The notes under the pieces are model-generated. The model ran no database searches and was not told the DNA's origin. It was given only the letters and a program-made list of their open reading frames with translations. Shown here one piece after another: positions 4,107-54,435 of a DNA stretch of 64,000 nt (the first letter of the stretch is position 1; every line of letters begins with the position of its first letter). The DNA lies in contig JAFXUD010000010.1 in the NCBI GenBank assembly GCA_017535315.1, forward strand, positions 1 to 64,000, read 5' to 3'. The stretch is from Victivallales bacterium. GTDB lineage: Bacteria; Verrucomicrobiota; Lentisphaeria; Oligosphaerales; Oligosphaeraceae. The position numbers and the translations under genes are program-made.

Positions 4107-4138
4107 TGTTTTCCCAGAAAACAGGCCGACATTCTAAA

Positions 4139-4292
4139 GAGGTAATTTCAAAACGAACGCAAAATACGCTAAGAGATGGGCGCATTGGCTAAGGCAACGG
4201 CTCGAAGCCGCACTTTTGTGCGGCGAGAGGCGTTGCCTTAGCCAATGTGTTCATATCGACACGCATTTCGATGATAGTTTTGAAATTACCTC
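4139..4292. repeat. Dispersed hairpin repeat, full copy A
   Basis: A 154-bp element bounded by perfect 16-bp inverted repeats, GAGGTAATTTCAAAAC at 4139-4154 and its complement at 4277-4292. Inside are a 17-bp perfect inverted pair (4183-4199 and 4231-4247) and a 7-bp stem with TTTT loop (GCCGCAC/GTGCGGC, 4207-4224). The single strand would fold into one long hairpin. It lies between the kinase start and the end of the surface protein gene. Related copies are at 28714-28866, 19480-19580, 4974-5021 and 12849-12867. No coding capacity. Confidence 0.85.
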
Positions 4293-4338
4293 CAGCGAGT
4301 GCCGGCCTATGCATGAAGGCTATTATAAAAAGAGTGTG

Positions 4339-4857: not shown

Positions 4858-4973
4858 GAATCATTCTCCTTTTATTATCTAGAATCTTTTGGAACTTATT
4901 TGCACCTTGTAAACATAATACACAAAAGGTCAAATGTCCAATCAATTCTTCAAAATATTTTACGATGGCACTT

Positions 4974-5021
4974 GAGGTAATACAAAACTGGCGCATTTTG
5001 ATGGGAGTCGTGACATTACTC
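4974..5021. repeat. Internally deleted copy of the dispersed hairpin repeat
   Basis: A left end resembling the family terminus (GAGGTAATACAAAAC) runs directly into GCGCATTTTGATG, the inner right arm of the family, and then into GTCGTGACATTACTC, a degenerate right terminus. The whole is 48 bp. It abuts the stop codon of the NYN-domain gene. Confidence 0.5.
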
Positions 5022-6087
5022 ACTTGCCTAACACATCAATCTTACCTGTCTTATTATCGACTCTGATGGTTTTCTGACATTGAAGAGTACTGATAATGGG
5101 AGAAATGTCTGGATTGGGTACATGGTAAACGTTTTTTAACGCCGTCTTCAGTTTTTCTGCATTTGTCAGTTTCAGTTTTCCGCTTCGTAAATCGGCGGCA
5201 AGAATTAAAACCATATCTCGTCGATAAGCCTTTCCAGCAGAGATGGTCGGCAGTAGCAGGCCATCGTTGGGAACAAGTAACTCAAACTCATTCTTGTCAT
5301 ACCAGATGGCCTTGCAATTGCTGCAAACATCGAGCTCTACACGATGCTTGCCAGAGGAAACATTCAACAAAGTCATGGAAGCACCGCAATCGGGGCAGAT
5401 ACATCCCAGCTGTTCTTGTTTTTTTGCCTGTGCCAAAAGGTCCTTCAAGCCTTCCTGTTCAAACACCTGGTTCAAAGATGCCAATTTGACCGTCATGCCT
5501 CCGCACGATGGGCACACTCTGCAATTCTGATTGGATTTTGTTCTGGAAGCAACCAATTTTTCGCCGCAACGCGGACAAAGTTGGCATGCCTCCCGAACAT
5601 TGTTCCCTAAAGCCGTTTGCGCAACCTCATGCAGGGTAATAAACTCCGTGCAAGCTGCACGAAAACTCGCAGGGGTGTTGGCATTTCCAAGCCCGTACAC
5701 GGTCTTTCCCTCCTCGCGTATCCTGGCAGCAAGCGTTGTGAAATCACTGTCACTTGAAACAATGCATATCCCTGTACACTGGCTTTTGTAGAGAAGAGTC
5801 ATTGCATCAATGACCAGGGCGATGTCCGTGACATTTTTATGGGAAATATTGCTGACTTGTGGGCGCGCCACTATCCCATATTCACGCAGTACCTTTGACC
5901 ATCCATCCGCACTGGAAAAACAATTGACCATTCCATAAGCACGGCGTACTATTGGCTCGCCAAGATGACGAATTCTCTCAAATATCTCCTTGGCCGATGC
6001 TGCGCTGACGTTATCTGCGTCAATCAATACCGCCAGCAGATTCGAAGACACCGCTTCAGATAATCCATCAAGTTTGGACACGTTCAT
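5020..6087 (-). CDS. NYN-domain putative RNase with zinc-ribbon modules
   Basis: 355 residues. Residues about 18-150 form a NYN (PIN-like, LabA-type) domain with VLIDADNVS, DIALVIDAM and SSDSDFTTLA supplying the conserved acidic residues of a metal-dependent RNase. Next are two cysteine modules: CPRCGEKL paired with CPSCGG, and CPDCGASM paired with CSNCKAIW, the latter like a TFIIB-type zinc ribbon. The C-terminal 70 residues look like a small winged-helix or LOTUS/OST-HTH domain, as often follows NYN domains, but this is not certain. A good Shine-Dalgarno (aggaat) precedes the ATG. It is likely cytosolic and acts on RNA; targets are unknown. Confidence 0.75.
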   Translation of the reverse strand: MNVSKLDGLSEAVSSNLLAVLIDADNVSAASAKEIFERIRHLGEPIVRRAYGMVNCFSSADGWSKVLREYGIVARPQVSNISHKNVTDIALVIDAMTLLYKSQCTGICIVSSDSDFTTLAARIREEGKTVYGLGNANTPASFRAACTEFITLHEVAQTALGNNVREACQLCPRCGEKLVASRTKSNQNCRVCPSCGGMTVKLASLNQVFEQEGLKDLLAQAKKQEQLGCICPDCGASMTLLNVSSGKHRVELDVCSNCKAIWYDKNEFELLVPNDGLLLPTISAGKAYRRDMVLILAADLRSGKLKLTNAEKLKTALKNVYHVPNPDISPIISTLQCQKTIRVDNKTGKIDVLGK

Positions 6088-12848: not shown

Positions 12849-12867
12849 GAGGTAATTTCAAAATTAC
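12849..12867. repeat. Minimal remnant of the dispersed hairpin repeat
   Basis: GAGGTAATTTCAAAATTACC joins the left terminus of the family directly to its right terminus. The core GGTAATTT-CA-AAATTACC is a perfect 8-bp inverted repeat. It looks like a copy whose interior was lost, and it lies just upstream of the LplT-like gene. Confidence 0.55.
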
Positions 12868-12891
12868 CATTTCCACTACAATACCCATGTC

Positions 12892-19464: not shown

Positions 19465-19479
19465 ACTTTCAGTCACAGA

Positions 19480-19580
19480 AGATGATTCCAAAACTAGCTC
19501 AAATGCGCTAAGAGATGGGGGGCGCCAACGCCAATGAGTTCATATCGATGCGCATTTCGATGATAGTTTTGAAATATCCC
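19480..19580. repeat. Shortened copy C of the dispersed hairpin repeat
   Basis: The ends GATGATTCCAAAAC and GTTTTGAAATATCCCC match degenerate family termini. Inside, GCGCTAAGAGATGGGG and CATATCGATGCGCATTTCGATGA match copy A. The central hairpin arm is missing. The element ends 18 bp before the start codon of the GH10-like gene, so it probably lies in that gene's leader or promoter. Confidence 0.7.
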
Positions 19581-19598
19581 CACAGGAGAACAACCGCA

Positions 19599-25141: not shown

Positions 25142-25211
25142 TGTCGTTTCTCCATTGCTATTCCGCCGCGCTCAATCGCAGCGCACAGTACAGGCGGTTT
25201 CGGGGGCATCA

Positions 25212-25445
25212 GCCCCGTCCTTTGGGAAGCCACCACCTGGGGGCGCGGGGGGCGCAAGCCACCCGTCCCTTGGCAGCCGCCACCTGGGGGGCGCAAGCCA
25301 CCCGTCCCTTGGCAGCCGCCACCTGGGGGGCGCAAGCCACCCGTCCCTTGGCAGCCGCCACCTGGGGGGGCGCAAGCCACCCGTCCCTTGGCAGCCGCCA
25401 CCTGGGGGGCGCGGGGGGCGCAAGCCCCCCGTCCTTTGGCAAGCA
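25212..25445. repeat. 39-bp tandem repeat array in an intergenic space
   Basis: The motif GCGCAAGCCACCCGTCCCTTGGCAGCCGCCACCTGGGG recurs at a 39-40 bp period (starts near 25252, 25291, 25330 and 25370), with diverged units on each side. The core CCCGTCCYTTGG also occurs once near 283-294. The array is very GC-rich and is open in several frames on both strands, but no ribosome-binding site or plausible protein is associated. Confidence 0.85.
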
Positions 25446-25514
25446 CCCTGCACCTGGCTTCGCCGCGCTCGGCGCGGCGCACCTTTTCTGTACAGCGGGT
25501 TCAGCCCGCAGGCA

Positions 25515-28147: not shown

Positions 28148-28714
28148 ATGATACCCAGCGACCATTTCGTAAGATTCTACAACGAGGTGTTCAAATTCCT
28201 TGACAAAAATAACGGTCTGGAAGAATACTATCTGGAAATCAGCCGTCACCAGGAAGGCCACTGCTATCAGCTCTTCATGGAAAAAGGGCTCGAGGGCATG
28301 GAAGAATATTGGGGACATATCCGCGTAGAGGAAAACTGTGTATCCTCCTCCTACATCAAGGATGGAGTCCGCTATTCGGAAATGAACCGCTGCCCCAGCC
28401 TCTCCAAGGTGCTTGACTGTGATGCAACTCCCTGCGAAAAATACTGCCTGCACTGCCCTGGATGGGTCATTCCCCTCATGACCAAGTGCGGTTTCTATTT
28501 CGTCGATTACATCATCGGTTTGGCTGATCCCCGCTGCCGCGCCTTCCAGACAGAATACCGCGAAAAGGCCCAGAAGATCATCGCCGACCTCATCGCAGAG
28601 GGACATGACCCTGATATGATTTTCTCAAACGTTGACAATGCTGAAGAAGTCGAGGCCAATAAGGCATATCGGCACTCCCTTCTGGCGAACAAGGCGTTGG
28701 GAATAAAGCGTTAG
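28148..28714 (+). CDS. Hypothetical cysteine-rich cytosolic protein
   Basis: 188 residues without signal peptide or membrane helix. Six cysteines lie between about residues 82 and 118, including CPSLSKVLDC and CEKYCLHCPGW, which could bind a metal. The C terminus is helical and charged. A faint resemblance to L-2-amino-thiazoline-4-carboxylic acid hydrolase-like proteins was considered but cannot be confirmed. Good Shine-Dalgarno (aagggag). Its stop codon is the first base of the dispersed repeat copy B. Confidence 0.6.
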   Translation: MIPSDHFVRFYNEVFKFLDKNNGLEEYYLEISRHQEGHCYQLFMEKGLEGMEEYWGHIRVEENCVSSSYIKDGVRYSEMNRCPSLSKVLDCDATPCEKYCLHCPGWVIPLMTKCGFYFVDYIIGLADPRCRAFQTEYREKAQKIIADLIAEGHDPDMIFSNVDNAEEVEANKAYRHSLLANKALGIKR

Positions 28715-28866
28715 AGGTGATTTCAAACTTAGTGAGAACTGCGCTATGAGATGAGTGCAGTGGCTAAGGCAACGACTCGGAGACGCATAAGTGCGTCAAG
28801 AGGCGTTTTCAACGCCAATTTATACATAATTAACGCACATTTTGATGACAGTTATATAATTGCCTC
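28714..28866. repeat. Dispersed hairpin repeat, full copy B
   Basis: A 153-bp copy with diverged ends GAGGTGATTTCAAACT and GTTATATAATTGCCTC. It keeps GGCTAAGGCAACG and a central stem GACGCA/TGCGTC (28782-28797) where copy A has GCCGCAC/GTGCGGC. The changed pair is compensated, so the stem is kept. It fills the whole space between two convergent genes and could act as their shared 3' structure. Confidence 0.8.
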
Positions 28867-28871
28867 GTTAG

Positions 28872-30140: not shown

Positions 30141-30277
30141 ATAGGGATTAGGAATTAGGGGATAGGGACTAGGGTCAGGGGATAGGGATTTAGGGCCAGA
30201 AATAGGGATTAGAGGGCTAGAGATGTTTTATAGCTAACTAATCCCTAAATCCCTAATCCCTAACCCCTAATCCCTAC
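30141..30277. repeat. Telomere-like TTAGGG/CCCTAA inverted array
   Basis: A G-rich arm (30141-30215) of variants of GGGATTAGGG and GGGGATAGGG is followed by a C-rich arm (about 30238-30277) of CCCTAATCCCTAA variants. The arms are largely complementary, so the region can form a hairpin, and the G-rich strand has several GGG runs. It separates murC from the GH123-like gene and overlaps the latter's last codons. Confidence 0.8.
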
Positions 30278-33200
30278 TGCAGTTGAGCAATGGCCTTGGC
30301 GAGTTTGGCACGGTGCGCCTCCATCGGGGCAGGCGAGCCTGTGAAGTTGATGGGAGAGGTCGTGACATCCGCTGGTACCTTGAGCAATGCCTCGCACTCA
30401 GCGCGCTTGGCATCGGAGAGTTTGTCGCCTTTTGCAGTAAGGAGCTTCTTAAGCATCGCAAAGTACTCGTAGTCCTCGATGCCGTCACGCAGCATCTCCA
30501 GGCGGATGCACCCCACGGGAGGCTCGTCCACAAATGCCTCCGCTGTACCATCGGCGATGCTTTCGGGCGGATATACAAAGCGTCCGTCGCCGTTGCCCCA
30601 AGGCTTCTTGGTACCCTTGGGAGTGTCGTAGCCAGAGACCCAGCTCATCGGGTCGAGATAGGGGTTTTGAAGGGAATCAGGGTAGGCGCAGGGACTCGTC
30701 CAGTGGTTGGTCGCCCAGATGAGGATGCCATCGATGTTGAGGTCCCAGGTCTGCCAAAGCCAGACACGCATCTCGGTGCCAGGGTGGTCGATAAAAAGCG
30801 TCGCATAGGGAGCCTTGGGGCCTGTGCAAACATACCACCAGTACTGCTCGCCAGCGGCGTGGCGGCTCTCCACGTCCTCGCGCAGGACATGCGCACTGCC
30901 AGGACACCAGAGGTTGGGGCCGCCGATGAGTTCGGGCTCCACCTGCTCCGTCAACATGCGGCGAATGTTGGGAGCGTACTTCTTCAGCTTGCTGAAGCCG
31001 TTCATCACGAATTCGTAGTCCTTCGGGTCGGGTTCGTCAAACCAATAGACATACGACTTGTCCAACCAGCCCTTTTCGCGGAGGTGCTTTTCGATTTCGC
31101 CGAAGTAGAGCGGCATCAGGTGATCGTATTCAGGGGTGTTTTCAGCAAAGCCGAAGAGGGTTGGTTCGCGGCGGGCGTGGAAGGTGCCGCTGCCCAGGCC
31201 GTTCACAGGCATTCTGAGGGTGTTGGCGTGGTATTTTGCGAATGCCTCCTCCACGTAGGCATCCCACTTTTCCCAATTGAACTCCAGCTTGAGTTCGTCG
31301 GGGTTGCACTTCCGCATCGAGATGGGGGCGATTACCACCTTGCCCGTGGCGGCTTCCTTCAGCGTGAAGTCGGCGGCGGTCAGCGTGCCGACGGGGGAGC
31401 CGTTTTCGCGCCAGCGCGTCGCGCGCAGAGTGACGCGAATGGATTTAGCACCTGGCTTAAAATCCTTAATCGTCAGCTTTTGGGTCTTCCAGGTGCCATC
31501 CCCCTTGAGAACGAAATCCTTGTTGCAGCCGCTCATCCATTTGCCGTTTTCATCGTGGCTCATGAAGGTAATCTGCGCCTCGCCCTCCGTTTTGTACGGG
31601 AACTCGCACTCAAAGCCTCCTTCGGGGATGGGAATCAGATCGGCATAGTCGGATGCGACGTTCTTGGTCGTGGAGGTGTCTTCGATGGTGATGGCGTTGC
31701 TGCCTTTTGCGGGGGTGTCAGCTAGGTACGTGCAGTTGCTCCACTTGGCGTTGTTGCCGACGAGCTTCACCTCGTAACGCGACAGCTGGCCTGGATCATA
31801 GATGCTGATATGGTGCTTGGAAAGCTCCGCCATATACATCTCCCACAGCTTGTGCTTCTGCTCGAAGGTCTTCGCCTTGTGGTAGGTGGCAGCGTTCCAG
31901 ACACCGAAGCCGAACGCGGTCTCGCAGGACATCACATCAGGCATAGTGAAATCGAACACTTCCACCGTCATTGGCACGGAGGCCTTCCAGCCTGCATCGT
32001 CACTGACGGTAATGGTGCCCTTGTAAAGCCCTGCCTTTGCATCCTTTGGCACATTCACGCGAATCCAGACGGGCTGGTTGAAATTGGCGGGAATCTCCAA
32101 CCCCTCAGGCTTGATAGGCGGCAGCGCGTCGGGCCACAAGCCAAGGATACCCGTGCTGTCTGTCTTGACCTTGACATCGTGGTAATAGACCTTCAGCACA
32201 TCGACGGCAGAAGCGGGAATGACCTTGCCGCCAAAGAATCCGCTCTTCAAGTCGGAGACGCTAATCTTCACGCCCTTCAACGTCTTCTTCGGCGTAATGA
32301 CAAGCTGCGCCGCCTCGGCCTCGTTGCGCGCAGCAGAGATGGCAAGAGCCTTGCCCTTGGCCGCAGGCAACTTGCGGTTGACGGATATCTTCCAGCCCGA
32401 AGAGGCCCACCAGATGGCGTTCTCCCCATCCGCCAATATCTCGCCATAGTTGATGCTGTAGAATTCGGGCACGTTTATCTCCGTGGAAATGCGGTACTTG
32501 GAATCACCGCCAAGAGCTGCCTGAATTTGCCACGCCCCCGTGTCGGGAACCTCGTAGGTGATAGCGATGCGCTGTGTCTCGCCCGCCTTGAGCGTCACAG
32601 GTGTACCTTGAAACACAACGGGCTGCTTGTTGACCTGCGACAAGGATGCGCTGGGCTGGAAGCTCTTGACTTGCGCGGCGTTGTTCTTCACGTTCACCAC
32701 AATGACGTTGTTGCCGCCAGGCAAGGCATCCCCCATGCTCTCAATAGCCACCTGTACGTCATCCTCGCGATCAAGAATCTGCACAAAGCGTGTGGTGCCC
32801 TTGATTTCGGTGGGCGTGCCAGATAGGCTCGCCTTGTAGGTGAGGAGGCTGATCTGGAATGCGCCTGGATCGGAGTCCTTGGAGCCCGTCTTCTGGCTGG
32901 CCTCGCCCGCCAGGCAGAGGTAGATGGTGTCGGCGGGATAGAGCGATTGCGGCAGAGAAACATCAAAGGAGCCCATGCCGCTTTGGGAGCCGACCTCAAC
33001 CCAGTTCTGGTTGTCCTTGCTGGCCTGCACCTTCAGCGTGCCGCCCGCATAGTAGTTGACGGTGGCAACGACTTTGCCGCTCAATTGCTGGCGGCCATTC
33101 ACGTTGAACTTATAGACCACCTTCGTGCCCTTGCCGAAGACCCAGCGGTGCGTGTTGAAGTCTGCGGAGTTGAAGACAAGCGGACGCGCAAACGTGCGCC

Positions 33201-33744
33201 CCATGTCATCGAAAGAGTGCGTGAAGCTGTATTCGTTGATGGAGATTTTCTCGCCTTCGCCCAGCTCAATCCCATCCGCTTTCGCAAAGATGGGATGGAC
33301 AGGCAATATCTTCAGGTTGGCGTACTGGATGGTCGCTTTCGCATGCCACTGCCCCATGCGGACGCACGGTGCCTCCTTGGTCGGAGCTGCAAAGACGTTC
33401 TTATAGAGCCGCCACTGCGGACCAGGCAGTTTGATATCGACGTTGCAGCAGACGGGGCCTGTCACGCCGCACCCGCCACTTGAATGGCTGCTTTTCATCA
33501 GGAACTCCACCATATACGCCTCGCCCGCCTTCACATCAATAGGATTGGAGAGCCAGTAGGTGCAGTCATCGCCTGTGCCCGTGACATAGATGGTGCCGTC
33601 AGGGTTGGTGCCACCCGCGCCCGTCAGCTTCCACCCCTTGAAACACTCCCCATCAATGACGGGGTTCTCAATGATGCGCCCCTGCTGGGCAAAAGATGTG
33701 ATGGCAAAAAATGCCAATATGCACAGTGTAATTGCTTTCTTCAT
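30274..33744 (-). CDS. Secreted GH123/DUF4091-like glycoside hydrolase, paralog 1
   Basis: 1156 residues with a signal peptide (about 1-19). An N-terminal carbohydrate-binding-like region, a central beta-rich part and a C-terminal DUF4091 domain are visible. YVYWFDEPDPKDYEF places an Asp-Glu pair at about 903-904; GH123 beta-N-acetylgalactosaminidases use such a pair. WLWQTWDLNIDGILIWAT and YPPESIADGT are further domain marks. Good Shine-Dalgarno (aaagga). The next gene upstream is a close paralog: the last 252 residues align without gaps at about 70% identity by eye. It is probably exported to act on host or dietary glycans. Confidence 0.8.
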   Translation of the reverse strand: MKKAITLCILAFFAITSFAQQGRIIENPVIDGECFKGWKLTGAGGTNPDGTIYVTGTGDDCTYWLSNPIDVKAGEAYMVEFLMKSSHSSGGCGVTGPVCCNVDIKLPGPQWRLYKNVFAAPTKEAPCVRMGQWHAKATIQYANLKILPVHPIFAKADGIELGEGEKISINEYSFTHSFDDMGRTFARPLVFNSADFNTHRWVFGKGTKVVYKFNVNGRQQLSGKVVATVNYYAGGTLKVQASKDNQNWVEVGSQSGMGSFDVSLPQSLYPADTIYLCLAGEASQKTGSKDSDPGAFQISLLTYKASLSGTPTEIKGTTRFVQILDREDDVQVAIESMGDALPGGNNVIVVNVKNNAAQVKSFQPSASLSQVNKQPVVFQGTPVTLKAGETQRIAITYEVPDTGAWQIQAALGGDSKYRISTEINVPEFYSINYGEILADGENAIWWASSGWKISVNRKLPAAKGKALAISAARNEAEAAQLVITPKKTLKGVKISVSDLKSGFFGGKVIPASAVDVLKVYYHDVKVKTDSTGILGLWPDALPPIKPEGLEIPANFNQPVWIRVNVPKDAKAGLYKGTITVSDDAGWKASVPMTVEVFDFTMPDVMSCETAFGFGVWNAATYHKAKTFEQKHKLWEMYMAELSKHHISIYDPGQLSRYEVKLVGNNAKWSNCTYLADTPAKGSNAITIEDTSTTKNVASDYADLIPIPEGGFECEFPYKTEGEAQITFMSHDENGKWMSGCNKDFVLKGDGTWKTQKLTIKDFKPGAKSIRVTLRATRWRENGSPVGTLTAADFTLKEAATGKVVIAPISMRKCNPDELKLEFNWEKWDAYVEEAFAKYHANTLRMPVNGLGSGTFHARREPTLFGFAENTPEYDHLMPLYFGEIEKHLREKGWLDKSYVYWFDEPDPKDYEFVMNGFSKLKKYAPNIRRMLTEQVEPELIGGPNLWCPGSAHVLREDVESRHAAGEQYWWYVCTGPKAPYATLFIDHPGTEMRVWLWQTWDLNIDGILIWATNHWTSPCAYPDSLQNPYLDPMSWVSGYDTPKGTKKPWGNGDGRFVYPPESIADGTAEAFVDEPPVGCIRLEMLRDGIEDYEYFAMLKKLLTAKGDKLSDAKRAECEALLKVPADVTTSPINFTGSPAPMEAHRAKLAKAIAQLQ

Positions 33745-33765: not shown

Positions 33766-33791
33766 TCCCCTAACCCCTAACCACTAATCAC
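33766..33791. repeat. Short telomere-like repeat between the GH123-like paralogs
   Basis: CCCCTAACCCCTAACCACTAAT matches the C-rich arm of the array at 30238-30277. It occupies the space between the two paralogous genes, at the same relative position (3' end of the gene). Confidence 0.7.
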
Positions 33792-36700
33792 TTCAGCGAA
33801 GCAATGGCCCTAGCGAGCTTCTCGCGGTGGGCCTCGACGGGTGCGGGGGAAGCGGTGTAGCTGGTGAGCGATTCGCTGACATCATCTGGCACCTTGAGCA
33901 GAGCCTCGTATTCGGCACGCTTCGCGGCGGGGAGCTTGTCGCCCTTGGCGGCAAGAAGCTTCTTCAGCATGACGAAGTACTCGTAGTCTTCAATGCCGTC
34001 GCGGAACATCTCCAGGCGGTAGCAACCGACGGGGTCGTCAGCGACGAAGCCCGCCTGGGTGCCGTCGGCAGCGGCCTCAGGTGGGTAGATGAAGCGACCG
34101 TCGCCATTACCGAAGGGCTGGCGAGTACCAGGTGTCAGGTGGGCACCAGAGACCCAACCCATCGTGTCGAGGTAGGGGTTCTGGAGAGAATTGGGGTACG
34201 CCTGCGCGCTGGTCCAGTAGTTGCTCGCCCAGATGAGCACGCCCTGCACGTTGTAGTCCCAGGTCTGCCAAAGCCACACGCGCATATCGGTGCCTGGGTG
34301 GTCGATGAAGAGCCCCGTGTAGGGGGCACGGCAGGCAGTGGAGATGTACCACCAGTACTGGTCGCCATCCGCCTGGCGCGTTTCAACCGCCTGGCGCGTA
34401 GTGCGATTCTTGTGGGGGCACCAAAGGTTGGGGCCGCCGATGAGTTCTGGCTCCACCTGCTCCGTCAGGAGGCGGCGGATGCCTGGGCAGTATTCTTTCA
34501 GCTTGCGGAAGCCGTTCATCACAAACTCATAGTCCTTCGGATCGGGCTCGTCGAACCAGTAGATATATGCCTTGTCCAGCCACCCCTTTTCGCGGAGGTG
34601 CTTTTCGATTTCGCCCAAATAGAGGGGCATCAGGTGGGCGTATTCAGGCGTGCCCTCCTGGAAACCGAAGAGGGCAGGCGCGCGGCGGGTGCGGAAGTTG
34701 CCGCTGCCAAGGCCGCCCACGGGGACGCGGATGGTCGTGGCGTGGTACTTCGTGATGGCCTCCTCCACATAGCGATCCCACCCGCTCCAGTCGAACTCCA
34801 GCTTCAGCTCCTTGACATCGGTCTTCTGCATGGACGAACTGTCGATTAGCACCTTGCCCGTCGCCTTCTCCTTGACGCAGAGGTCGGTCACGGTCATCTC
34901 GCCCGTGTTGGAGCCGTCTTTCGTGTATAAATGCGGCAGGAACGCGACAAGAAAGTACTTGGCGCCTGGCTTGAAGCCATTCACCGTCACCGTCTGCGTC
35001 TGCCAGTTGGTGTCACCTTTCAGGCGGGTATCCTGGTTGCAGCCAGGCATCCACTTTTCCGTGTCGTCAAAGGAGCGGACAATGAAGATCGCCTGCCCTG
35101 GCTGCGCCAACTTGAAGCGGAAAGAACACTCCAGCCCCCCCGCGGGAACTGGAACCAGCTCCTGGTAGTTCGCGGAGATGTTTGAGGTCTTGGAATCGTC
35201 CTTTATGAGCATGGCGTTGCTGCCTGCCGTTGGCATGTCCGCCAGGAAGGTGCAGTCGTTCCAAAGAGGCTTCTTGTCGCCGACCACCTTTGCCTTGAAG
35301 GGTGAGAGCTGGCCTGGGTCGTAGATGCTCACATGGTGCTTGGCAAGCTCCGCCATGTACTTCTCCCAAAGCAGGTGCTTCTGCTCAAAGGTCGTGGCCT
35401 TATGGTATCTGGCAGCAAGCCCCACGTTGAAGCCGAAGGCGGGCTGACAGGTCATCGTGTCGGGCAGCGTAAAGCCGTACACCTCCACTTTCAACGGGAC
35501 ACTCGCCTTCCAGCCAGAGGCGTCGCTCACCGTGATGATGCCGCTGTAGAAGCCTGGCTTCGCCTCCTTTGGTACATTCACGCGGATCCAGACAGGCTGG
35601 TTGAAGTTGGCGGGGACCTCCATTCCCTCGGGCTTGATGGGTGGCAGTGCGTCTGGCCACAGGCCAAGGATGCCCGTGTTGTCCGTCTTGATTTCGACAT
35701 TGTGGTAATAGACCTTGAGCACATCAACAGAAGAGGCGGGTATTGTTGTGCCAGTTTCGCCGCTCAAATCAGAAACGCTGACCTTCACGCCCTTCAACGC
35801 CTTCTTGGGCGTGATGACGAGCTGCGCCGCCTCTGCCTCGTTGCGTGCCGCACTGATGAAAAGTGCCTTGCCCTTGACTGCTGGCAGCTTGCGGTTGACG
35901 GATATCTTCCAGCCTGAGGAAGCCCACCAGAGGGCGTTGTCTCCCTCCGAAAGTATCTCGCCGTAGTTGATGCTGTAGAAGTCAGGCACCACTACGTCGG
36001 TGGAAATGCGGTATTTGCTGTCGCCGCCTAAAGTCACCTGGATGTTCCACGCCCCCGCATCCAACAGCTCGTATGGCACGGTGAACACCTGCGTTGCACC
36101 CGTTGCAATGGTGGCCGTTTTTGCCTCGAATGTTGTGGATTCCTCCTTGGCGTTGCGCAGGATGACGGCGGGTTTGAGTGTGCGCGCCTTCTGTAAGGTG
36201 TTGGTCACGCTGAACTGGACGACGTTGTTTCCGCCAGGCAGGACATCGCCATAGCCTTCCAGAACAACCTTCAAGGCATCGTCACGCTCCAGTACCTGCA
36301 CAAAGCGCGTGTTTCCACGAACGCCAGTCGGCGAGCCCGACAGCGTGGCCTTATAGGTAAGTATGTTGATCTGGAAGGCCCCAGGGTCCGAATCCTTCGC
36401 CCCAGTCTTCTGGCTGGCTTCACCCGACAGCCTGAGGTAAAGAGTGTCCGCGGGGAAAAGCGTCTTTGGCAGTTCGGCTTTCACAGAGCCCATGCTGCTC
36501 TGCTCGGCAAGCTCAACCCAGTTCTGGTTGTCCCTGCTGGCGGCAATCTTTAGTGTGCCGCCAGCATAGTAGTTGACGACGGCGGAAAAAACACCGCTCA
36601 ACTGCTGTTTTCCGTTGATGTTAAACTTGTAAACGACCTGTGAACCCTTGCCAAAAACCCAGCGGTTTGAATTGAAGGTGGCGGAATTGAAAATGAGCGG

Positions 36701-37273
36701 ACGCGAGAAGTTGCGCCCCATCTCGGAGAAACTCGGCATGAAAATGTATTCGTTCTCAATGATGTTTTCGCCGTCGCCCAGTTCGATGCCCTCATATTTG
36801 TTGTACAAAGGAAAAACGGGCACCACCCGCAGGTTGGCGTACTGGATGCTGGCCTTTGCATGCCACTGCCCCAAACGCACGGCTGGCTGCTCTTCCGACG
36901 TAGGTGCCGCAAAGATGTTCTTGTAGAGATGCCACTCGGGCCCAGGCAAGGGGACATCGACATTGCAGCTGACGGGGCCTGTCACGCAACATCCGCCGCT
37001 GCTTTCATCGCTCTTGCAAAGAAACTGCACCATATAGGCCTCGCCACCCTTCAGCTGCGTCAACGGCTTGGAGAGCCAGTAGGTGCAGTCGTTGCCGTTT
37101 CCCGTAACGCTGATGGTGCCGTCGGGGTTGATTTTGCCCGCGCCTGTCAGCGTCCACCCCTGGAAACATTCCGCATCAATGACGGGGCTCTCGACACCCC
37201 GTCCCTGCTGGGCAACGGTCATCATAGCTGTAAATATCAGTGTTAGCAGAAGCAGCATAAATGTTTTTTTCAT
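33788..37273 (-). CDS. Secreted GH123/DUF4091-like glycoside hydrolase, paralog 2
   Basis: 1161 residues from the ATG at 37273, which has AAGGA upstream and opens a signal peptide (about 1-21). A longer in-frame start would overlap the neighbouring lactonase gene and is rejected. Domain order matches paralog 1, with YIYWFDEPDPKDYEF at about 903-914 and an Asp-Glu pair at about 908-909. The paralogs are tandem on the minus strand with 43 bp between them, consistent with gene duplication followed by divergence in the binding regions. Substrate preference may differ between the two. Confidence 0.8.
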   Translation of the reverse strand: MKKTFMLLLLTLIFTAMMTVAQQGRGVESPVIDAECFQGWTLTGAGKINPDGTISVTGNGNDCTYWLSKPLTQLKGGEAYMVQFLCKSDESSGGCCVTGPVSCNVDVPLPGPEWHLYKNIFAAPTSEEQPAVRLGQWHAKASIQYANLRVVPVFPLYNKYEGIELGDGENIIENEYIFMPSFSEMGRNFSRPLIFNSATFNSNRWVFGKGSQVVYKFNINGKQQLSGVFSAVVNYYAGGTLKIAASRDNQNWVELAEQSSMGSVKAELPKTLFPADTLYLRLSGEASQKTGAKDSDPGAFQINILTYKATLSGSPTGVRGNTRFVQVLERDDALKVVLEGYGDVLPGGNNVVQFSVTNTLQKARTLKPAVILRNAKEESTTFEAKTATIATGATQVFTVPYELLDAGAWNIQVTLGGDSKYRISTDVVVPDFYSINYGEILSEGDNALWWASSGWKISVNRKLPAVKGKALFISAARNEAEAAQLVITPKKALKGVKVSVSDLSGETGTTIPASSVDVLKVYYHNVEIKTDNTGILGLWPDALPPIKPEGMEVPANFNQPVWIRVNVPKEAKPGFYSGIITVSDASGWKASVPLKVEVYGFTLPDTMTCQPAFGFNVGLAARYHKATTFEQKHLLWEKYMAELAKHHVSIYDPGQLSPFKAKVVGDKKPLWNDCTFLADMPTAGSNAMLIKDDSKTSNISANYQELVPVPAGGLECSFRFKLAQPGQAIFIVRSFDDTEKWMPGCNQDTRLKGDTNWQTQTVTVNGFKPGAKYFLVAFLPHLYTKDGSNTGEMTVTDLCVKEKATGKVLIDSSSMQKTDVKELKLEFDWSGWDRYVEEAITKYHATTIRVPVGGLGSGNFRTRRAPALFGFQEGTPEYAHLMPLYLGEIEKHLREKGWLDKAYIYWFDEPDPKDYEFVMNGFRKLKEYCPGIRRLLTEQVEPELIGGPNLWCPHKNRTTRQAVETRQADGDQYWWYISTACRAPYTGLFIDHPGTDMRVWLWQTWDYNVQGVLIWASNYWTSAQAYPNSLQNPYLDTMGWVSGAHLTPGTRQPFGNGDGRFIYPPEAAADGTQAGFVADDPVGCYRLEMFRDGIEDYEYFVMLKKLLAAKGDKLPAAKRAEYEALLKVPDDVSESLTSYTASPAPVEAHREKLARAIASLK

Positions 37274-37340
37274 GCTAAAATCCTTGTATTTTGGGGTAAT
37301 TGCAAAAAGTTTCGCATATTTCGACGACGGGCCGTCGTCA

Positions 37341-38369
37341 CTACGCCCTTTCCACAATGCAGATGGGGCGTGGGATGTCGCGGACGATGTTGCCGTCTGG
37401 CGTGAGACGTCCGCTGATGGGGTCATAGCCGTAGAAATAGACATGGTTGCTCTTTTCGTGACCAATGGCAAACTTGCCGCAACTAGGCAGGAAGTTGAAG
37501 TCGCGCGGAAAGCTTCCTGCGCAGAGGGTCAGGTCGGACTGCCCCAAAATCCCGCCATCAAAGACGCGATAGGTGACGATGCTGTCGTAGCCACGGTTGG
37601 AGGCGAGCAGGAACTTCTCGTCAGCCGAGAGGCGGATGGCCGCCGCGCCATTGAAGTCCTTGTAGGCTTCGGGCAGCATGGGCACCGTCTGGATGATGCC
37701 GAATTGGCCATCCTCGTAGGTGAGGGAAGTGACGGTGCTTGCCAGTTCGTTGAGCAGATAGGCGCGTTTGCCGTCCTGCATGAAGACCAGGTGGCGCGGA
37801 CCGCTGCCACCTGGCACGATTTTCGAGCATTTCACGCCGTCGCGGTCGATGCCGTCGGCGGTCAGGGGATATGCGAAAATGGCATCGACACCTAGATCGA
37901 CCACGCAGAGATATTTCTGCTCAGGCGAGATGATGGTGAAGTGCGCATGCGCATTCTCCTGCCTGTCGGCGCGAGGGCCGTGTCCAGGGTGCTGTACAAA
38001 GAACTCCGCCTCGCCGACGATGCCGTCATGAAGGGGGTATTGCGCCAAGCGCCCCAACGGATAGTTGGCGGTGAAAATGTGCGTGGCTTCTGGATTGCAG
38101 CAGAGATGGCATGCCTGCATTTCAGGCGCTACAACCTCGCACAGCTTTTCAAGGCTGTCGTCTGCGTTGATTTTGAAGGAGGCGATGCCGCCGATGCCTT
38201 TGGCGGCGATGCTGGTAAACAGGAACTGCTTGTCAGGCGAAAAGGCGATGTAGTTGGCGTTCGCCACTGGATAGAATCCAGTCTCCACGACATGGTTGTC
38301 CTCATAGACATAGCTGTGGATGCCGCCTTCTGGCGCGCAGGATGCAATGTAGAATGTCTTGCTTTTCAT
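37341..38369 (-). CDS. Lactonase-family beta-propeller protein (6-phosphogluconolactonase YbhE-like)
   Basis: 342 residues, one seven-bladed propeller of the Pgl/YbhE type. Repeated blades include QFLFTSIAAKGIGGIA, AHFTIISPEQKYLCVVDLG, GSGPRHLVFMQDGKRAYL and FAIGHEKSNHVYFY. The family hydrolyses 6-phosphogluconolactone or related lactones. No signal peptide is visible. The ATG at 38369 begins the conserved region; an earlier in-frame ATG would add 18 basic residues. It is 67 bp upstream of GH123-like paralog 2 on the same strand and diverges from nagB. Confidence 0.82.
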   Translation of the reverse strand: MKSKTFYIASCAPEGGIHSYVYEDNHVVETGFYPVANANYIAFSPDKQFLFTSIAAKGIGGIASFKINADDSLEKLCEVVAPEMQACHLCCNPEATHIFTANYPLGRLAQYPLHDGIVGEAEFFVQHPGHGPRADRQENAHAHFTIISPEQKYLCVVDLGVDAIFAYPLTADGIDRDGVKCSKIVPGGSGPRHLVFMQDGKRAYLLNELASTVTSLTYEDGQFGIIQTVPMLPEAYKDFNGAAAIRLSADEKFLLASNRGYDSIVTYRVFDGGILGQSDLTLCAGSFPRDFNFLPSCGKFAIGHEKSNHVYFYGYDPISGRLTPDGNIVRDIPRPICIVERA

Positions 38370-51271: not shown

Positions 51272-51363
51272 GAGGTAATTTCGAGACTGAAAAACATGTG
51301 CTGGCTCTGAAGAAGCCCCGCATCCATGAGGTTTAAAACCAACGGATGCGGGGCGTTTTTGTT
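51272..51363 (+). terminator. Perfect hairpin with T tract, next to a repeat-family end
   Basis: GCCCCGCATCC (51315-51325) and GGATGCGGGGC (51344-51354) form an 11-bp stem, then GTTTTTGTTT. Just before it, GAGGTAATTTCGAGAC (51272-51287) resembles a terminus of the dispersed repeat. Both flanking genes are on the minus strand, so the plus-oriented T tract has no obvious partner transcript. Confidence 0.6.
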
Positions 51364-52139: not shown

Positions 52140-52273
52140 AGATGTTTCCCGCAGGACCACCCTGCGGTTTATCTGTAATTTACAGCCGAAAGACGCATCT
52201 TGCCATTCAACCTGCGCAAAAAAGATTTTACCCAGTGTCATCTGATTTTAGAAAAGTGATTTGACACGATGCC
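52140..52273 (+). repeat. Duplicated regulatory cassette, copy 1
   Basis: Shares long identical runs with 54247-54390, including TGTAATTTACAGCC, CGCATCTTGCCATTCAA, CGCAAAAAAG, TGATTTTAGAAAA and ATTTGACAC in the same order and spacing. It ends in the promoter of the Fe-S flavoprotein gene. Confidence 0.8.
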
Positions 52274-52288
52274 TATCCACATTACATT
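52261..52288 (+). promoter_or_regulatory. Promoter with TGACA half-sites for the Fe-S flavoprotein gene
   Basis: TTGACA (52261-52266) and TACATT (52283-52288) are 16 bp apart. GTGTCA (52235-52240) and TGACAC (52262-52267) form an inverted pair, matching the TGACA/TGTCA sites near the TetR gene, so the same regulator may bind here. Confidence 0.55.
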
Positions 52289-54246: not shown

Positions 54247-54390
54247 AAATAATGTTGTTTCCACCGCAGAACCACTCTGGGGATATTTGTAATTTACAGC
54301 CTGATTTCGCATCTTGCCATTCAAGCTCCGCAAAAAAGTTTTTTTACACAGCGTCAAGTGATTTTAGAAAATTTATTTGACACAATGTCA
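54247..54390 (+). repeat. Duplicated regulatory cassette, copy 2
   Basis: The counterpart of 52140-52273, lying between the divergent FAD oxidoreductase and TetR genes. It contains the -35 element and first operator-like site of the TetR operon. Confidence 0.8.
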
Positions 54391-54435
54391 ATAAAGGTTA
54401 TATTATAACCATTACACGATGTCAGACTGTTGACA
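54377..54435 (+). promoter_or_regulatory. Promoter and two operator-like palindromes of the TetR operon
   Basis: TTGACA (54377-54382) and TATTAT (54401-54406) are 18 bp apart. TGACA-CAA-TGTCA (54378-54390) is a perfect inverted repeat over the -35, and TGTCA-GACTGT-TGACA (54420-54435) lies after the -10. Both would suit autoregulation by the adjacent TetR protein. Confidence 0.6.

Follow-up and report, generated by a model that had tools for sequence, protein, structure and literature searches.

A palindromic MITE family in a Victivallales bacterium, probably moved by an IS1182-related transposase, with hairpins apparently altered by deletion and template switching

The closest described systems are insertion sequences (ISs) of the IS1182 family and multi-copy bacterial MITEs. 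ISPse1 of Paracoccus (IS1182 family) is 1653 bp long, with 16/16-bp TIRs and 4-bp direct repeats (PMC3281130), and IS1272, of the same family, has 16-bp ends, replaces palindromic targets, and produces no target-site duplication (TSD) (PMC5678879). By description, the repeats analyzed here resemble the longer ISPse1 in having a 16-bp TIR and a 4-bp repeat; with IS1272 they would share the broad family, and they likewise have 16-bp ends, but they have 4-bp TSDs as a rule and no enrichment of flanking palindromes. QMITE1 and QMITE2 of Coxiella burnetii and Chunjie of Geobacter uraniireducens are multi-copy MITEs with wide size variation, TIRs, direct repeats, and many partial copies, as set out in the portions of PMC10969869 cited here; they are alike to our family by that description, although the hosts differ and those portions make no mention of arm homogenization. 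Template switching creates and maintains paired stems, according to the sections of PMC8794818 drawn on here, and the same kind of clustered arm change is described there as we find among copies of one MITE family. This arm homogenization is the most interesting part of the system; the kind of MITE itself is already known.

The window, meaning the whole 64,000-nucleotide stretch of DNA analyzed, is contig C47:1-64000 of the bacterium's genome (G000; 4.9 Mb, 96 contigs); L-numbers denote individual loci. The five copies proposed in the initial annotation were confirmed with small boundary shifts (copy C to 19479-19581 and copy E to 12849-12870), and perfect 4-bp TSDs that it had not noted were found on copies B, C, and D. 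The features are as follows.

4139 to 4292, plus strand: copy A, a full-length 154-bp MITE with perfect 16-bp TIRs and a near-perfect hairpin
4237 to 4243, plus strand: right-arm stretch of copy A, CTTAGCC versus CAACGCC in the family consensus (columns 110-112)
4974 to 5021, plus strand: copy D, a 48-bp MITE of the short class
4970 to 4973, no strand: left TSD of copy D, ACTT
5022 to 5025, no strand: right TSD of copy D, ACTT
12849 to 12870, plus strand: copy E, a 22-bp remnant with its two ends fused and no TSD
19479 to 19581, plus strand: copy C, a 103-bp MITE with an internal deletion, without the central hairpin
19475 to 19478, no strand: left TSD of copy C, ACAG
19582 to 19585, no strand: right TSD of copy C, ACAG
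28714 to 28866, plus strand: copy B, a decayed 153-bp full-length MITE
28710 to 28713, no strand: left TSD of copy B, GTTA
28867 to 28870, no strand: right TSD of copy B, GTTA
51272 to 51287, plus strand: possible solo terminal repeat with 2 mismatches, ATAA directly before it

Copy A occupies a tandem intergenic setting, with a histidine-kinase gene on one side and a small ORF on the other. Its fold is calculated at -90.6 kcal/mol (z -13.7), and it is without an intact TSD (flanks TAAA/CAGC). The decayed hairpin of copy B is weak (z -2.5). Copy E has a counterpart at L097:8964-8985, an intact 22-bp form flanked by GTAA/GTAA. With up to 3 mismatches allowed, the TIR matched 9 times in the window versus 0.37 expected. 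The flanks of copy A themselves form an inverted repeat at window positions 4123-4308 (AGGCCGACA / TGCCGGCCT), and copy A is placed as if inserted in the loop of an older hairpin. This is no general pattern: IS1272-style palindrome targeting, considered on account of these flanks, was rejected when flanking palindromes proved not to be enriched overall.

A whole-genome search with the terminal sequence, as the initial annotation had proposed, revealed a family larger than it had stated. The terminal 16-mer, at up to 2 mismatches, matched 278 times in G000 (132 + 146) versus 0 times for the reversed control, and copy A matched about 38 near-full-length copies (about 154 bp) at 79-92% identity. 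In all, the elements occupy well over one hundred sites in the genome. We analyzed their anatomy in 80 stretches of G000 (1.6 Mb including the window) and 40 of G001 and G002, two genomes of the same genus. The 16-bp sequence GAGGTAATTTCAAAAC lies at both termini, the TIRs ending GAGG..CCTC, and two-ended elements fall into discrete sizes of 152-162, 108-112, 72-73 (91-92), 44-59, 33, and 22 bp, alongside solo ends. As expected of a MITE, the elements are small (22-162 bp), number more than 100, and contain no transposase gene. An exact 4-bp TSD flanks 52 of the 105 two-ended elements from the three genomes, versus a mean of 2.2 and a maximum of 8 in 2000 shuffles of the flanks; 76 of the 105 agree at no fewer than three of the four positions (14.8 in shuffles). 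Of the 72 G000 elements, 33 have a TSD match at offset 0, compared with 0-2 at any other offset, and the match is thus specific to the exact element boundary. Insertion targets are AT-rich and without a fixed motif. By crude gene calls, 69 of the 72 elements are intergenic, versus about 10% expected by chance. The most economical view is of a genomic parasite tolerated between genes, with putative effects on neighboring genes possible. A literature search for the end sequence returned no relevant match.

The family is also present in G001 and G002, at up to 92% identity, and no full copy was found elsewhere among 99 relatives. Comparison of orthologous flanks between G000 and G001 revealed sites filled in one species and empty in the other. 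The site orthologous to a 50-bp element at L147 (TAAT) is empty in L093, that of a 154-bp element at L148 (TATA) is empty in the window, and that of a 154-bp element at L069 is empty in L122; the element is also absent from the copy C site in G001 (L148). One old insertion is common to both genomes (L057/L121). Two 48-bp elements that differ from each other in arm type, L146:9000-9047 in G001 and L100:18070-18117 in G000, seemingly occupy the same locus, the right flank alone being clearly orthologous. Copy number, TSDs, and empty sites within the genus therefore identify these repeats as a palindromic MITE family. Of the readings offered in the initial annotation, the MITE is the one borne out, by TIRs, 4-bp TSDs, empty sites, and the matching ends of autonomous ISs in relatives.

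REPs, the other mobile element then proposed, are tied to RAYT genes, and REP/RAYT systems are not known to make a TSD. REP or REPIN elements mobilized by a RAYT (Y1) transposase would account for the REPIN-like hairpin form, and Y1 transposase genes are present in G000, G001, and G002, including an IS200/RAYT-type gene about 7.6 kb past the window (G000:C47:71592-71945; L313). Our elements instead have 4-bp TSDs and genuine TIRs that end GAGG..CCTC, and DDE ISs carry the same ends; we therefore consider this origin extremely unlikely.

Five G002 loci (L149, L150, L153, L155, and L156) have identical or near-identical GAGGTAATTTCAAAAC ends around unrelated cores, with lengths of 90-197 bp, and the ends therefore define the element. 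The L155 element has a tandem repeat, CTATCGAAGCCGCTGG, within it. A scan of GTDB genomes with an 18-mer from the end gave matches in many phyla, some of them arising by chance, and revealed paired elements with a different core in Verrucomicrobia SZAS-4, Syntrophaceae, Lentisphaerae, and others. At L167 and L177 of SZAS-4, an unrelated MAG, 108-bp near-perfect hairpins carry the variant end GAGGTAATTGCAAAAC. Viral contigs contained one 18-mer match and no relative of the transposase described below.

A search for a transposase with matching ends, also suggested initially, succeeded in relatives, where it is an IS1182-like DDE enzyme, but not in G000, G001, or G002. We searched genomes having the ends for DDE_Tnp_1 and then searched with the G105 protein. 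One homologous transposase group was found in five genomes (G101, G102, G105, G110, and G111), with the same ends outside the ORF. Within the bacterium's own class, 27 of 198 genomes have the transposase, and some of these ORFs are also flanked by the ends. At L294 (G026, same family as the window), the IS is 1390 bp with a 377-amino-acid ORF and GAGGTAATTTCAAAAGTCT on both sides, its terminal sequence being GAGGTAATTTCAAAAG at both ends. The matching ISs are about 1.4 kb and encode DDE transposases of 360-380 amino acids related to IS1182/ISUnCu17. Their ends vary along GAGGTAATTTCAAAAG, GAGCCAATTTCAAAAC, and GAGCCTTTTGCAAAAG; those of L294 share 15 of 16 bases with the MITE ends, and position 16 in the IS ends is G instead of C. 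A perfect 4-bp TSD flanks 6 of the 17 ISs examined (L286, L288, L289, L312, and the plasmid ISs L318, which is ISUnCu17, and L320).

An alignment of eight transposases revealed D156, D285, and E333 (L294 numbering) as invariant, and by position these residues would form the DDE triad. The best NCBIfam model was IS1182, for which all proteins tested fell below the cut-off (73-105 versus 270 bits for full-length transposases). The nearest plasmid relatives are annotated as IS1182 family, including ISUnCu17 of the Aeromonas caviae plasmid pKAM643_2 (NZ_AP026405.1), whose transposase is about 40% identical over 98% of the query. ISUnCu17 is about 1.48 kb, with ends GAGCCTCTTGCAAAAGG / GAGCTTCTTGCAAAACT that are unlike the MITE ends at several positions and a TSD of ATGA/ATGA.

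No homologous transposase was found in G000, G001, or G002; since these are draft MAGs (95.6, 85, and 78% complete), either assembly loss or true absence may be the cause. The sequence covered, 1.6 Mb from G000 and about 0.3 Mb from G001/G002, contained no convincing TIR-bounded autonomous element; longer TIR pairs there were combinations of neighboring MITEs. Two adjacent DDE_Tnp_1 ORFs (475 and 300 amino acids) at G000:C88:109840-113742 (L117) lack the MITE ends and apparently belong to an unrelated IS. Across 198 genomes of the class, the ends and the transposase are weakly associated, with exact ends in 7 of 27 genomes having the transposase and 30 of 171 without it. We base the link between MITE and transposase on the sequence of the ends, the length of the TSD, and the physical flanking of the ORFs, and this co-occurrence is not used as support.

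An IS1182-like transposase probably moves the MITE copies and, because none was found in the bacterium or its two congeners, we infer that it does so in trans. The MITE would be a non-autonomous transposon whose ends, GAGGTAATTTCAAAAC, are its sole required parts. An IS1182-related DDE transposase encoded by ISUnCu17-like ISs of about 1.4 kb would recognize these ends in trans, excise or copy the element, and insert it in AT-rich intergenic DNA through a cut staggered by 4 bp. Afterward, deletions between short direct repeats in the long hairpin would yield the 112-, 73-, 50-, 33-, and 22-bp forms, as their junctions imply, and arm-to-arm template switching, strongly suggested by clustered changes, would make the arms more complementary. 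We hold this account, a palindromic MITE moved in trans by an IS1182-related transposase with its hairpin then altered by deletion and template switching, to be highly probable. Movement by a transposase that is unrelated and unsampled, and whose ends became similar by convergence, would fit the lack of the IS1182-like group in the genus and the weak genome-level co-occurrence. The ends agree at 15 of 16 bases with those of ISs from the same family, however, and the TSD length is likewise 4 bp, which makes such convergence unlikely. The results also reveal a short-ended MITE superfamily, with a common TIR and unrelated cores, spread through Lentisphaeria, and tie it to an IS1182-like transposase group.

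Deletion at microhomologies, stimulated by the hairpin, is consistent with the size classes of 154, 112, 73, about 50, 33, and 22 bp. The 33-bp form, GAGGTAATTTCAAAACTAGCGCGAAATTACCTC, is the expected product of a deletion from GAAAT in the left arm to GAAAT at the right end, and a deletion at AAA would account for the 22-bp form. Forms of 33 or 34 bp occur at at least 7 loci, with 3-4 of 4 TSD positions intact in all and differing arm variants, which suggests independent hairpin-stimulated deletions in place. No clean pair of long and short forms, each from a different species, was found at an orthologous site. The 44-59-bp forms may themselves be mobile, since exact TSDs flank 11 of the 32 and their ends are no more decayed than the ends of full copies.

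The initial annotation had pointed to a compensated base pair keeping the central stem between copies A and B. The pair is real (columns 70-89, C-G in A and A-U in B), but the hairpin of copy B is weak. Among 52 full copies, covariation does exceed that in shuffles, with double-sided changes at 15 pairs and in 26 cells versus 6.2 and 6.9, and 0 of 500 shuffles reached the observed values. These counts, like the very stable fold of copy A, would be expected of hairpins maintained by selection as a structured RNA or cis-regulatory family and spread secondarily. The alifold covariation term is near zero (-0.26), however, and Rfam covariance models identified only two tRNAs in the window and did not match the repeats. 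Wholly different cores occur on the same ends, and many copies are cut to 22-50 bp. Some of the covarying pairs are explicable by inheritance; for example, seven copies, all in G001, have UA changed to GC at columns 10-157. Several others are explicable by arm copying, in which clustered changes bring one arm of an individual copy into complementarity with its partner. In copy A, mismatches of the consensus at columns 47/117 and 52-54/110-112 have all turned complementary, L093 having three of them, and with the CTTAGCC change at 4237-4243 the right arm is exactly complementary to the left arm of the same copy. Across the element, L126 and L127 differ solely by a change of ATGATA to CGCAA, which renders the right arm of L127 fully complementary to its own left arm, and L094 has the same kind of change with a different arm sequence. 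Multi-base, self-templated changes are a known signature of template switching at quasipalindromes, according to the parts of PMC8794818 and PMC7202029 cited here, and the pattern of substitutions strongly suggests template switching between hairpin arms. Such switching requires no RNA function; we therefore do not take the covariation as evidence for RNA, and we regard a selected RNA family as very unlikely.

Bidirectional transcription terminators moved around the genome would have long, GC-rich central stems such as those found here, and copy A does lie within the inverted repeat of its flanks (AGGCCGACA / TGCCGGCCT). Convergent gene contexts are nevertheless rarer than background (4 of 66 versus 79 of 513), inverted repeats in the flanks are no more frequent than shuffling produces, and no terminator-like site (GC stem plus T run) is present at the ends of A or B, the sole weak match in A being an internal 5-pair stem. 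A terminator function is highly improbable on these grounds; with no Rfam match and DNA replication as an explanation for covariation, neither the RNA nor the terminator proposal of the initial annotation is supported.

Returning to the MITE, we tentatively propose, at somewhat less than even confidence, a lineage in which template switching between arms recurs and renders individual copies self-complementary, these altered copies go on to transpose, and forms down to 44 bp remain mobile, with no transposase of its own in the genus. If this is true, covariation would arise from DNA replication alone. The family also serves as a natural caution: base-pair covariation in dispersed repeats, even when statistically significant, can stem from template switching rather than RNA function.

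Other repeats are present in the window. An 18-bp tandem repeat (CGCGCCCGATGCGCCACC) occupies its start (1-216), and G-rich tandem units of 39-48 bp with CCCGTCC(C/T)TTGG lie at 25199-25460, a related distant unit being at 262-295. Inverted arrays of TAGGGATTAGGGATTAGGG-like repeats lie between two genes at 30142-30276. Adjacent large ORFs at 30274-33744 and 33788-37471 (1156 and 1227 amino acids) are tandem paralogs, sharing blocks that are 70-83% identical in DNA and spaced about 3.5 kb apart. Finally, a 63-bp repeat (TTTTACNCAG...GATTTTAGAAAA...ATTTGACAC), 78% identical between 52226-52288 and 54342-54404, is possibly a second dispersed or regulatory repeat.
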